DNA from: Alphaproteobacteria bacterium
Lineage (GTDB): Bacteria > Pseudomonadota > Alphaproteobacteria > Micropepsales > Micropepsaceae
Length of the DNA: 64,000 nt
Reading direction: 5' to 3'
NCBI GenBank assembly: GCA_017983635.1
Contig: JAGOBA010000008.1
Coordinates: forward strand, 62,001-126,000
The translations under genes were made by a program, and so were the position numbers. Below, piece after piece: positions 20,069 through 29,623 of the stretch (within the stretch, counting starts at the first letter, position 1; every line of letters begins with the position of its first letter). The notes under the pieces are model-generated. The model saw nothing but the letters and a program-made list of their open reading frames with translations, did no database searches and was not told where the DNA came from.

Positions 20069-20713
20069 TCAATCGCTTGGGGAGATTCGTCCACCCCAAG
20101 CACTGCCGTAACGCCATTCTTCCGGAACTCGACACAGCCCCGCAACGACCGGATTCATCTCGATGTAATGCAACGCGTTAGCGTAGTGCAGATCGTCGCG
20201 AATTGCGCGGTCGAAGTATTCGGGCGCCCAGAACATGCCTTCGCGCTTCAGGATGGCGTTCGCCTTCTTCGCTGTGAACGACTTCCAAGCGTGGGTAATC
20301 GACGAAAGCGTCCAATCGGCGAGTGGCGTCGCGAGGACGTGGACGTGGGTCGGCATGATCGACCATGCATGTAGCCGATAACGCACCGCGTCGAAATGCA
20401 GAAGGGCTCGTTCGACGAGGTCGGCGATCTCAGGTTTCGACAACGCTCTCGAGCCGTGACCTTGATCGAGCGCAACCTCCATACGACGGCGACGCTCAAG
20501 GTCAATTTTATCGGCAGCCACGCTGGCGAGTTCCATGCGCCATTGTTCTAGAACTGACATCGGCAAGCTGTCGCCAAGGCGAAACGTGATTGCCTGCGCG
20601 AATTCGCCCGCTTCCCAATGCGGGACGTAGCCGCGCGAGTGCCATGTTGGTGTGGGCAATGGGATTGTTCCTAGACCGCGGAGGTTTTTTGCCCGCTCTT
20701 GCGTTGTGAACAA
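20069..20713 (-). mobile_element. REP-associated tyrosine transposase (RAYT, Y1/HUH family)
   Basis: Up to 214 residues. HUH nuclease motif in MPTHVHVLATPL (His-x-His) and a downstream Tyr in EYFDRAIRDDLHYANALHYI are typical of IS200-like Y1 transposases; WHSRGYVPHWEAGEFAQAIT at the N-terminus is typical of the RAYT branch. No ATG is available at the 5' end: the frame opens with TTG at 20713, 3 bases from the right REP, with a second TTG at 20659, so the start is uncertain. RAYTs are usually single-copy, domesticated, and nick REP sequences. Here the gene is framed by perfect REP inverted repeats and sits between hisS and the PQQ dehydrogenase. Confidence 0.85.
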
Positions 20714-23124: not shown

Positions 23125-24375
23125 CTAGATCGGCTGGGGAAGGGCGACCATGAAAGTTGCACCTTCCACCGTCGCTTCGCCGCCATGGCGGCGGGCGATT
23201 TGGCGCACGAGGGCGAGGCCCAGGCCGGTGCCTTGCGCGGTCCCCGCAGTCGAGCGGAAGAACGGTTCGAAGATGCGTTCGCGGTCGGCTTCGGCGACGC
23301 CCGGGCCCTTGTCGGCGACGGTGAGTTTGGCTTTCGTGCCGTCTTCACCGACGCTGACTTCGACCGGCCGGGCGCCGTGGCGGTTCGCGTTTTCTAAAAG
23401 GTTGCGCAACAGGCGGCGCAGGAGGCGGGCGTCGCCGCGGACGGTGACCGGCTGGCCGGTGACAGCGACGCCGTCGTAGTGCGCGGCTTCTTCGGCGGCG
23501 AGCGCGAGAAGGTCGACGTCCTCCAGCGTGTCGAGGCGCTGCATCGCGTCGAGGCGGCTTGAGAGCAGGATTTCGTCGATCAGGTGATTGAGTTCGGCGA
23601 TGTCTTGTTCGAGTTCGGCGCGCCGGGCGGGGTCGGCCTTTTCCTTCAGCAGTTCGACGCTCATGCGCAGACGGGTGAGTGGTGTGCGCAGTTCGTGCGA
23701 AGCGTTGGCGAGCAGCATTTTGTGCGCCTTCACCAAATCTTCGATGCGTTCGGCGGCGCGGTTGAAGCTGGCGGCCACGCCCGCAACTTCATCCTTACCT
23801 TCGACTTTCACGCGCGCGGTGAGGTCGCCGGCGCCGAGCGACTCCACGCCTTGCTGCAGACGTTCGAGGCGGCGGGTGAGGCCGCGCACGATCGGGTAGG
23901 AGCCGAGCGCAAGGAGCAACGCCACGAGAGCGAGGTGGCCGAAGAAGCCGATGCCGCCGCGGAAGTGACGCTCGAATGGCGGACGCACGACAATCTGGCG
24001 GCCGTCAGCGAGTGGGAACGACCAGACCGGCGGGCGGTGACGATCGAACCAGCGTTTCTCGCGATCTTCGAGCTCGCTGGGCGTTGGCAATGCCCTGCCG
24101 GAGGCGCCGAGCGGTTTGCCGTCGGAAGAATAGAGCGCGAGGTCGGCCTTCAGCAGGCGAGCGAGACGCTCGACAGCTTTTTGCTGCTCGGCTGCCGGGG
24201 CGTTCGGATCGGCGAGGGCTGCGGTCGCGACGCCGCTCGCCATCGAGAATGCGTCTCGTGCGGTTTCGAGTTCGGGGCCGGTGCGCCAAACAAGAATGGA
24301 GACAATGATCACGAGCGCGAGGGTTGCTACGATCGTGAGATAGACTTTCAAATAGAGCCGATTGAAGATGCCCAT
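23125..24375 (-). CDS. Membrane sensor histidine kinase
   Basis: 416 residues. TM1 at about 10-30, a periplasmic loop to about 142, TM2 at 143-163, a HAMP domain to about 215, and the H-box ASHELRTPLTRLR with phospho-accepting H227. ATP-binding motifs NLLENANRHG (N), DKGPGV (G1) and GTGLGLALVRQI (G2) are intact. Overall it resembles CpxA/RstB-type kinases. Its start is 3 bp after the response regulator stop, so the pair is co-expressed. The periplasmic loop, rich in charged residues, should sense an envelope signal. Confidence 0.9.
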   Translation of the reverse strand: MGIFNRLYLKVYLTIVATLALVIIVSILVWRTGPELETARDAFSMASGVATAALADPNAPAAEQQKAVERLARLLKADLALYSSDGKPLGASGRALPTPSELEDREKRWFDRHRPPVWSFPLADGRQIVVRPPFERHFRGGIGFFGHLALVALLLALGSYPIVRGLTRRLERLQQGVESLGAGDLTARVKVEGKDEVAGVAASFNRAAERIEDLVKAHKMLLANASHELRTPLTRLRMSVELLKEKADPARRAELEQDIAELNHLIDEILLSSRLDAMQRLDTLEDVDLLALAAEEAAHYDGVAVTGQPVTVRGDARLLRRLLRNLLENANRHGARPVEVSVGEDGTKAKLTVADKGPGVAEADRERIFEPFFRSTAGTAQGTGLGLALVRQIARRHGGEATVEGATFMVALPQPI

Positions 24376-24378
24376 CGC

Positions 24379-25065
24379 TTAGTCCTGCGCCTTCGCGAAG
24401 ACGTAGCCGGCGCCGCGCACGGTGAGAACGCGATGCGGCTTCTTGGGATCGTCTTCGATGGCGGCGCGAATGCGGGAAATGTGGACGTCGATCGAGCGGT
24501 CGAACGCTTCGATCGTTTCACCCTTCACGACGTCGAACAGCGCGTCGCGGGAGAGCACGCGCCCTGCCCGTTCGGCGAGCGCGAGCAGCACCGCGAACTG
24601 ATAGCTGGTGAGCGGGCGCGCAGTTCCATCAACGCGGACTTCGCGGGCGTCCTTGTCGATTTCGAGGCGGCCGAAGCGCAGCGTGCTGGCAGTTGCGCCC
24701 GCGTGCGCGCGGCGTAGGATCGAGCGCAGCCGGGCCAAAAGCTCGCGCGGTTCGAAGGGCTTCGGCAGATAGTCATCGGCACCGAGTTCGAGGCCGACGA
24801 CGCGGTCCATGGCATCGCCGCGGGCGGTCAGCATCAGGATCGGCGTTTGGCTTTCGGCGCGCACTTGCTTGCAGACCTCAAGGCCATCCATGTCCGGGAG
24901 CATGAGGTCGAGAACCAGGGCGTCGAAGCTCTCGCGCTTGTTCAACGTCAGACCGGCATTGCCGGTTGCGGCGTGGGTCACGCGAAAGCCCGCCCCGTTC
25001 AGATAGTCTTCGACCATCCGAGCGAGGCGGGGATCGTCTTCGATCAAGAGAATGCGGTCGGCCAC
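24379..25065 (-). CDS. OmpR-family response regulator
   Basis: 228 residues from the GTG at 25065 (VADRILLIEDDPRL), with GAGG upstream; earlier in-frame starts lie before the conserved fold. Receiver domain: acidic pair D10-D11, phosphoacceptor D53 in LVLDLMLP, T80 and K102 in PKPFEP. C-terminal winged helix with RSIDVHISRIRAAIE and TVRGAGYVF. Partner of the kinase that follows. Because a Spy/CpxP-like gene precedes it, the trio looks like a CpxRA-CpxP-type envelope stress module. Confidence 0.92.
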   Translation of the reverse strand: MADRILLIEDDPRLARMVEDYLNGAGFRVTHAATGNAGLTLNKRESFDALVLDLMLPDMDGLEVCKQVRAESQTPILMLTARGDAMDRVVGLELGADDYLPKPFEPRELLARLRSILRRAHAGATASTLRFGRLEIDKDAREVRVDGTARPLTSYQFAVLLALAERAGRVLSRDALFDVVKGETIEAFDRSIDVHISRIRAAIEDDPKKPHRVLTVRGAGYVFAKAQD

Positions 25066-25096
25066 GCGTGCTTTATCCTCGTGACCGGCCACGCAA

Positions 25097-25606
25097 TCAG
25101 AACGCCCAGTGCTCCGCAAGCTTCGCACGCTGCGCCGGCGTTAACACGTCGGCCGCGTCCGCCATGCCTTGCGTCAGGCGCTTGGAGACGTCGTCGGCGA
25201 GCGCCAGGTGTTCGGCGCGCAGCGCTTCGAGTGCGGCACGGTCGGTCTTGGGCTGACGCAGGAGTTCGACGATCCGGCCTTTCGCCCCACGCATCTTGCC
25301 GTGCACGGGGACAAGGTCCGTTGCCATACCCTCCGCGATCACCGTTAACTTTTGCTTCTGATCGGCCGTAGCATCGATTGCCCAAGCGAGATGGCCAACC
25401 ATGCGCGCCGCATGCTCCTTCGCTTTGGCTGGATCAATCGGCCCACGCTCGTGATGACCGCCGCCCCAGTGGCGACCCATGCCGGGACCCATGCCGTGAC
25501 CGAACGCAGTCGTGGCCATGCCCCCGCCTACAACGCCGATGAGCGCTGCGGCCGCAAGTGCCGCAAAGCCAAAGCGGCGGCGGGATGAATTCGTTTGTTC
25601 AGACAT
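25097..25606 (-). CDS. Spy/CpxP-like periplasmic protein
   Basis: 169 residues from the ATG at 25606, with GGAG 8 bases upstream; the much longer open frame upstream has no coding signal. An N-terminal export signal (about 10-36, FAALAAAALIGVVGGGMATT) is followed by a histidine/glycine-rich stretch (HGMGPGMGRHWGGGHHERG) that could bind metal. The rest is helical with an LTPAQ motif near the C-terminus, as in Spy and CpxP, which act as periplasmic chaperones and, for CpxP, inhibit CpxA. It is 31 bp before the response regulator and probably starts the operon. Confidence 0.8.
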   Translation of the reverse strand: MSEQTNSSRRRFGFAALAAAALIGVVGGGMATTAFGHGMGPGMGRHWGGGHHERGPIDPAKAKEHAARMVGHLAWAIDATADQKQKLTVIAEGMATDLVPVHGKMRGAKGRIVELLRQPKTDRAALEALRAEHLALADDVSKRLTQGMADAADVLTPAQRAKLAEHWAF

Positions 25607-25831
25607 TGATGTGCTCCATGAGGGGGGCGTTTCTTCGCCCTGCCGTAGATAAAGATCGGGGTGAGCCGTTTCGCGCGGTTCTCGGCAAAGTAAAGTAATG
25701 TTGCCGCATACGAGATGTTCTTGGGGTGTTCCTGCGTCAGTTGGCGCAAAATTCAGATTGTATGGGGCGGTGCTTGCGGCTCTAATCCGCCGCCTTTCGG
25801 CCCCTCCCGACCTTACGACAAACGGATTCCC
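25607..25831. promoter_or_regulatory. Divergent promoter region between Spy-like gene and secF
   Basis: About 225 bases. It holds AAAGTAAAGTAATG at 25687-25700, a tandem GTAA repeat that could be bound by the OmpR-family regulator encoded downstream but does not match the GTAAA-N5-GTAAA CpxR spacing. Otherwise no clear signal is visible. Confidence 0.3.
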
Positions 25832-26761: not shown

Positions 26762-26918
26762 GACGACGATCGGTGACGCGGATCACAGAGCCAGTCGCGT
26801 AATCTCCCGGAAAAGCGGCTGCTGAGCGCTCCACCGACCGATCGCGGTGCGACGGAAATCGCTCGCGCCGCGCGTTTGAGGTCGCGGGGCCTTGATGGCT
26901 TGCGACAGGAGATTTCTC

Positions 26919-27362
26919 ATGAGGAAGACGATGAGCGCGGCGCTTGTTGCGCTGTTGGTGGCGTCCACGTTGGGCGCGAGCATGGCGGAGGCGCGGCATC
27001 GCAATCACAATCCGCCCGGGCCGCGTGGCGGGCCCGGAACCGATTGGCACAATCCGCCGGGACCGCGCGGCGGACCGGGCGCGTCACCGCATCGCTGGTG
27101 GCTCGGCAATCCGCCTGGCCCGGTGGGCGGACCGGGACGTGGACCGCTTTGGCGGCATCGCGCGATCCCAAGCAATTGGGTCTATTGGGGTTTGTTCGGC
27201 GGCTTGCATTGGTACAAGCATCCGCACGGCTATTGGTGCCGGTTCGACAATGACGGTAACCCGCCCGGGCCCGCGGGAGGGCCCGGCACGAACTGGGAGA
27301 ACCCACCCGGTCCGATCGGCGGGCCAGGCGCTTCGCCGAACAGTCCTTATCGTCCGTGCTGA
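26919..27362 (+). CDS. Exported NPPGPxGGPG-repeat protein
   Basis: 147 residues from the ATG at 26919, with AGGAG upstream. A signal peptide (1 to about 25, ALVALLVASTLGASMAEA) precedes five copies of the decapeptide NPPGPxGGPG at residues 31, 45, 64, 114 and 128. The copies are linked by TDWH/TNWE or ASP spacers. A central aromatic segment (about 84-110, rich in Trp/Tyr/His) and two cysteines (107 and the last residue) break the repeats. The repeats predict an extended or polyproline-like chain. I know of no function; a cell-envelope or matrix protein is a guess. It is monocistronic with a terminator at 27368. Confidence 0.75.
   Translation: MRKTMSAALVALLVASTLGASMAEARHRNHNPPGPRGGPGTDWHNPPGPRGGPGASPHRWWLGNPPGPVGGPGRGPLWRHRAIPSNWVYWGLFGGLHWYKHPHGYWCRFDNDGNPPGPAGGPGTNWENPPGPIGGPGASPNSPYRPC

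Positions 27363-27418: not shown

Positions 27419-29623
<2,205 letters not shown>

Follow-up and report, generated by a model that had tools for sequence, protein, structure and literature searches.

The window analyzed here is a stretch of 64,000 nucleotides from an alphaproteobacterial contig, and the locus under study within it is a gene for an exported repeat protein preceded by a promoter-like element. Its features are listed below.

26851-26876, plus strand: promoter-like element of the cabp/SigV type, GACGGAAA-N14-GCGTT, its layout compared with the 5'RACE-mapped cabp promoter in the accessible text of PMC13171946
26919-27362, plus strand: coding sequence of the exported NPPGP-repeat protein, 147 amino acids
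26919-26993, plus strand: signal sequence, residues 1-25, with AEA at the likely cleavage site (by eye and hydrophobic-core scan)
27009-27095, plus strand: unit 1, diverged, with decapeptides at 27009-27038 and 27051-27080, spacer TDWH and tail ASPHR
27108-27137, plus strand: lone half-unit NPPGPVGGPG, present too in relatives L009 and L095
27138-27239, plus strand: aromatic core (RGPLWRHRAIPSNWVYWGLFGGLHWYKHPHGYWC), whose final residue is Cys107
27246-27344, plus strand: unit 2, canonical (DNDGN..TNWE..SPNS), with decapeptides at 27258-27287 and 27300-27329
27357-27359, plus strand: C-terminal Cys147; the Cys107-Cys147 spacing is seen again in relatives

The translation bears out what the first-pass annotation had described, namely a secreted protein with five NPPGPxGGPG decapeptides, regular TDWH/TNWE and ASP spacers, an aromatic stretch between copies 3 and 4, and a C-terminal cysteine. 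The N terminus, MRKTMSAALVALLVASTLGASMAEA, reads by eye as a typical Sec-type signal, and the hydrophobic-core scan agrees. The decapeptides start at residues 31, 45, 64, 114 and 128, leaving gaps of 4, 9, 40 and 4 residues; TDWH lies between copies 1 and 2, TNWE between copies 4 and 5, and ASP follows copies 2 and 5. At the DNA level, any two of the five copies are unlike at 6-10 of 30 bases, and 4-8 of these differences fall at third positions; Tandem Repeats Finder reports no array at these repeats, so they did not arise by recent DNA expansion. The silent differences had already been read as a sign of selection, and this holds, but better proof comes from the 93%-identical relative L009, against which the window gene has a dN of 0.049, a dS of 0.81 and a dN/dS of 0.06. 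It is a genuine gene subject to purifying selection.

Where the earlier description has to be revised is the repeat itself. The five decapeptides exist, but the decapeptide is half of the true unit, which in relatives spans about 32 residues: D-x-D-x-NPPGxxGGxGTNWE-NPPGxxGGPGASPDR. The unit thus joins two decapeptides with fixed but differing spacers, GTNWEN after the first and GASPDR after the second, behind a D-x-D-x lead-in. The relatives come from a scan of genome contigs that matched 197 stretches, 131 of which encode relatives; the best 80 of these 131 were kept, and the consensus was built from 184 units (165 distinct) at 80 loci, with none from L080 under the pattern used and with L001-L008 omitted as own-genome duplicates. 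Conservation of the GTNWEN-type letters is inflated because GPGTNWEN was part of the scan seed, whereas the D-x-D lead-in and GASPDR lie outside it. D-x-D-x-N opens 219 of 232 units, and the N, P, G, N and W positions are invariant across phyla, an unusually sharp conservation for a Gly/Pro-rich sequence.

These 131 relatives, obtained in one scan, settle in the affirmative whether homologues exist beyond close strains, and repeat number varies: family proteins carry 1-5 units, with one of 99 scoring zero under the unit pattern. A signal-type hydrophobic core is present in 96 of the 99 on a simple scale. In 47 of the 99, a cysteine about 40 residues ahead of a C-terminal cysteine brackets the last unit (probably by coincidence in L093), and the window protein has this pair as Cys107 and Cys147. 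It also has its lone half-unit in common with L095, a relative from another genus. The unit model A3 matches the two window units at E 1.1e-14 and 5.7e-14, values that are not independent because window unit 1 and a near-copy of unit 2 are among the 30 rows of A3. Together with the export-type N terminus, this match places the window protein in the NPPGP 32-residue repeat family.

Two curated family libraries, Pfam and NCBIfam, hold no name for the repeat, and the window protein has no match in either up to E 10, including no EF-hand and no collagen family, in keeping with the annotation's remark that it knew no function for such repeats. On this basis we rejected an EF-hand protein as the identity of the product. 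A collagen-like protein was rejected as well, since a long unbroken Gly-X-Y tract is absent (three triplets, then a break) and no Pfam family matches. A PDB sequence search returned chance-level matches (E 0.3 or worse), and a search of plasmid sequences returned none. AlphaFold2 gave no confident fold for the whole protein (45 rows, pLDDT 47) or for a single unit (102 rows, pLDDT 51); the low values are compatible with disorder or with a fold that requires a ligand and are evidence for neither. Within the window protein, unit 2 is canonical, and unit 1 has His and Arg where relatives have Asp (HRNHN..TDWH..SPHR), with loss of the acidic residues.

Record titles place relatives in Alpha-, Beta-, Gamma- and Deltaproteobacteria, Myxococcaceae, Desulfobacterales, Omnitrophota, Verrucomicrobia, Planctomycetota and one cyanobacterial assembly, a list in which binning errors are possible because many records are metagenome-assembled genomes. 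By the A3 profile, the repeat occurs in 8 of 96 genomes of the window's order and 3 of 398 of its phylum (the window's own genome included in both), in 18 of 117 Omnitrophota genomes (the phylum of L031, seed genome included), and in 6 of 119 genomes of the family of Caulobacter vibrioides T5M6 (seed included). The repeat is patchy across genomes and almost unchanged where found. The window's own genome also encodes a long paralogue on the minus strand of contig C21 (L089:6778-7917), which has 12 decapeptides and ends in a Trp/Tyr/Arg-rich stretch, and similar long forms are found in five further genomes of the genus (L090, L091, L093, L096 and L097). L089 and its genus relatives share a different upstream block, CTAAACGC(G/A/C)CCGTTCATGCACCATTCAG, in 5 of 5 cases with enough upstream sequence; a literature lead to ChvI for this block gave nothing useful.

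Shared neighbours, which the annotation had suggested looking for, are mostly lacking. The 80 loci form 47 flank groups, and 136 of their 169 neighbour ORFs, called by a home-made heuristic rather than a gene finder, were surveyed (33 were omitted, the longest and some short ones). The commonest families, histidine kinase domains (5) and glutaredoxin (3), are so few that there is no general operon partner. The exceptions are two lineages with a DUF1800-DUF1501 pair, two Omnitrophota with an ECF sigma gene, and the Thiobacillus-type loci, which have a two-component pair. In the last group (L023, L024, L036 and L063, of Thiobacillus and Sulfuricellaceae type), a histidine kinase and a response regulator are encoded immediately upstream of the repeat gene, on the other strand, and 3 of the 136 scanned neighbours have sensors of RisS_PPD type. 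The window itself contains an envelope-stress type cluster at 23125-25609, in which a histidine kinase, a response regulator and a Spy/CpxP-like Metal_resist/LTXXQ protein are adjacent, a KatG-type peroxidase gene at 27419-29623, downstream of and convergent with the repeat gene, and an IS200/Y1 transposase-like open frame at 20069-20713. KatG, SecF and the local kinase-regulator-Spy cluster were dropped as partners because none follows the repeat gene among relatives.

The upstream region was also compared across genomes. The window element reads GACGGAAA-N14-CGTTTG (GGAAA-N14-CGTTTG), with CGTT 46 nt before the ATG, and the repeat gene of C. vibrioides T5M6 has GACGGAAA-N13-CGTTTG (GGAAA-N13-CGTTTG in Caulobacter relatives). 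In many alphaproteobacterial relatives, GACGGA-N-CGTT recurs upstream, at about -58 to -72. Of 32 alphaproteobacterial repeat genes, 15 have the element in the 150 bp upstream, and these fall in five groups (the window genus, an Aquidulcibacter-like group, Caulobacter, Henriciella L068, and L079); the other 17 lack it at the pattern used. It precedes none of 197 other genes at repeat-gene loci (Fisher p 5e-15, a value inflated by close relatives). The pattern occurs once in the window, with 0.45 expected by chance, so its value rests on conservation rather than rarity. Genome-wide, there are 8 matches in G000 against 6 in a reversed control, and 6 in T5M6 against 0. Each genome has its repeat gene and a DUF1800 gene among these matches, and G000 has the ECF gene as well.

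Known sigma motifs (EcfG, RpoE, RpoH, sigma-54 and sigma-70) upstream of 96 family genes are for the most part near the shuffled level. Two exceed the largest of 50 shuffles: one EcfG form (4 matches; mean 1.0, largest 3) and a loose RpoE form (11 matches; mean 3.5, largest 8), the latter mostly in Lysobacteraceae genes. In that family, 18 of 20 repeat genes carry a different ECF-like element, AA[CT]-N-GTCA[AG], about 80 bp upstream (2.3% in shuffles). A search for it in six genomes recovered the repeat genes and no convincing further regulon member, the other matches lying mostly inside long frames.

The window element resembles a mapped promoter. According to the accessible text of PMC13171946, cabp of C. 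vibrioides is an exported EF-hand gene adjoining the ECF gene sigV (CCNA_02838/CCNA_02837), and its start, mapped by 5'RACE, has a -35 of GGAAA, a 13-nt spacer and a -10 of CGTTCA. The same text reports that calcium depletion by EGTA and acid induce cabp, that the cabp transcript is lower in a sigV deletion, that SigT acts above SigV, and that a cabp mutant makes more extracellular material (PMC13171946). In T5M6, a sigV-type locus (L154) contains an EF-hand gene, an ECF gene, a gene for a 143-residue protein and one for a Metal_resist-domain protein, with GACGGAAAA-N-CGTTGAAG 67 bp before the EF-hand gene; gene order and domains suggest that L154 is the published cabp-sigV. More broadly, 31 sigV-type loci yielded 24 EF-hand genes, and 21 of these have the element within 150 bp upstream; the scan covered both orientations and set starts by a signal-like rule, under which 7 of the loci have no EF-hand gene. 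An earlier, first scan had found the element at 19 of the 31.

The window genome has its own SigV-type gene (L151:6165-6806), with the element 70 bp upstream. Its product is 51% identical to the T5M6 ECF, and the two score 273 and 259 bits against NCBIfam NF004113 (cut-off 208), which qualifies the window genome's ECF as a SigV orthologue. The putative promoter of the window gene has the layout of a SigV-type ECF regulon, with a spacer of 14 instead of 13, and we consider it probable that the gene belongs to such a regulon. The repeat would be accessory at best, since sigV-type genes occur in 90 of 119 Caulobacter-family genomes and the repeat in 6. A sigV-type gene is present in 6 of 6 repeat-positive and 84 of 113 other genomes of this family, a difference that is not significant.

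The DUF1800-DUF1501 association was followed in the same genome sets. The two genes follow the repeat gene on the same strand in Stenotrophomonas maltophilia D457 (L048) and in a Sulfuricellaceae assembly (L063). DUF1800 occurs in 7 of 8 repeat-positive versus 47 of 88 repeat-negative genomes of the window's order (one-sided p 0.06) and in 6 of 6 versus 73 of 113 genomes of the Caulobacter family (one-sided p 0.08); pooled, the two sets give a one-sided p of 0.0096. The promoter element precedes DUF1800 at 6 of 30 Caulobacter-family loci, with about 0.7 expected, and the strict element at none of the 15 best DUF1800 loci of the window's order. We regard the link as suggestive only. The window genome's own DUF1800 gene (contig C21:413527-414848; L129, L152) is in two frames, an apparent frameshift that reflects a broken gene or an assembly error.

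EF-hand models are the commonest companion domain in the family (7 of 98 proteins at E 1e-4), and an EF-hand loop pattern marks 12 of 99. In two Omnitrophota loci, L257 and L258, a gene that encodes both repeat and EF hands adjoins a set of three genes, one of them an ECF gene (Sigma70_r2/r4). The two ECFs are 51% identical. The other members are an exported-looking protein and a protein with one hydrophobic stretch, which may be an anti-sigma factor. These loci were chosen from the 18 positive Omnitrophota genomes, and wide flanks were inspected in these two.

Taken together, these observations lead us to propose that the window gene encodes an extracytoplasmic accessory protein belonging to a calcium/acid-responsive regulon of the SigV type, and that its repeats probably bind cations, a combined account that we put somewhat short of probable. 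A drop in envelope calcium or acidification of the medium would lead the SigV-type sigma factor, or SigT, which reportedly acts upstream of SigV, to transcribe the repeat gene; an EF-hand gene, where there is one, and in some cases DUF1800-DUF1501 would be transcribed along with it. Once exported to the periplasm or the surface, the D-x-D-x-N...NWEN...SPDR units, probably disordered when free, would serve as binding sites for divalent cations (probably Ca2+), buffering or bridging them in the envelope or matrix. Cation binding, suggested by D-x-D-x-N and the gene associations, is the more tentative part, and by itself we rate it as less likely than not; with one acidic unit and one carrying His/Arg, the window protein may have a different cation preference. 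The annotation's idea of a metal receives indirect support by way of calcium. In favour of the proposal are the element counts, the cabp layout, the genome's own SigV-type ECF, the EF-hand fusions, the Omnitrophota ECF, D-x-D-x-N and the Lysobacteraceae ECF-like element. Against it are the non-acidic unit 1, a window protein lacking an EF hand and a confidently predicted fold, the G000 element count close to its reversed control, the 17 of 32 repeat genes lacking the element, and its presence at 6 of 30 DUF1800 loci.

A less likely account is that of a structural matrix or envelope protein, in which extended polyproline-/polyglycine-II-like segments would carry Trp/Tyr stickers (NWEN and the aromatic core) for cross-linking or for attachment to polysaccharide. 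Control by an ECF factor would then reflect general envelope stress, and specific cation binding would be unneeded. The PPG-PRG-GPG composition with its conserved W fits such a role, as do the Trp/Tyr-rich ends of some members (L089), the extracellular material of the cabp mutant (in the accessible part of PMC13171946) and the DUF1800-DUF1501 pair, contiguous in two loci and tied elsewhere to chitin synthase genes in the part of PMC5122149 available. This account leaves the fixed D-x-D-x-N lead-in, the SPDR tail and the EF-hand fusions unexplained. Extreme conservation alongside predicted disorder, and companions as different as EF hands, coiled coils and an aromatic core, could also mean that the unit serves as a recognition tag: a modifying enzyme, a protease or a sorting system would read it as a linear motif, and the remainder of the protein would be cargo. 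We think this unlikely, as no modifying enzyme or sortase recurs in the 136 neighbours and 47 flank groups, and the units number 1-5 and are internal as well as terminal. Finally, a peroxide- or transition-metal-stress protein tied to KatG or the Spy-like cluster, as the convergent KatG, the nearby Metal_resist/LTXXQ protein and the His for Asp in unit 1 might suggest, is very improbable, and the annotation's peroxide idea finds no support, because peroxidases do not recur among shared neighbours (they are outside the 25 commonest Pfam families in the 136 neighbours and outside the shared flank families listed) and in L009 the upstream gene encodes an M23 peptidase instead of SecF.

Returning to the cation-responsive regulon, a broader version of the proposal, on balance rather unlikely, is that the repeat is a new extracytoplasmic 32-residue module, disordered when free and ordered by Ca2+, that crosses phyla and has been wired repeatedly, by promoter, fusion or cluster, to ECF sigma factors and EF-hand proteins. 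If true, it would be the effector arm of a bacterial calcium/acid envelope response. A literature search, covering part of the literature, found no paper describing the repeat or tying it to an ECF; text matches to repeat strings came via 'NPPGP' only, one being a Salmonella YbjX peptide and the rest judged unrelated from the text available. Connecting it with an ECF promoter whose start has been mapped, and with a calcium/acid circuit already described, gives an orphan sequence its first testable role, and the repeat may offer a foothold on DUF1800/DUF1501, a widespread pair without known function.

How the repeat compares with known systems can be stated feature by feature. Like collagen-like Gly-X-Y sequences, it has three such triplets per decapeptide (PPG-PRG-GPG), but the NWEN/SPDR spacers break the repeat every nine residues and no collagen family matches. 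The calcium loops of EF-hand and dockerin type follow the pattern D-x-D-x-[DN]-G. The D-x-D-x-N opening of 219 of 232 units resembles them, whereas the repeat has no G at the sixth position, where PPG comes next, and the window protein has no Pfam EF-hand match. The DUF1800-DUF1501 pair directly adjoins the repeat gene in L048 and L063, and some DUF1800 genes carry the promoter element; yet the pair is spread far more widely (of the 96 genomes of the window's order, 54 have it and 8 have the repeat) and is absent from the window. Its link elsewhere to bacterial chitin synthase genes is taken from the accessible part of PMC5122149. Closest is the CaBP-SigV circuit. The window protein differs from CaBP in having no EF hand, an EF-hand gene was not observed next to the ECF gene of the window genome, regulation of the window gene by SigV is an inference, and the accessible text of PMC13171946 does not mention a repeat protein. 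What the two have in common is the promoter layout GGAAA-N13/14-CGTT, an exported product, a SigV-type ECF in the same genome and, for the repeat family, relatives elsewhere that are fused to EF hands.
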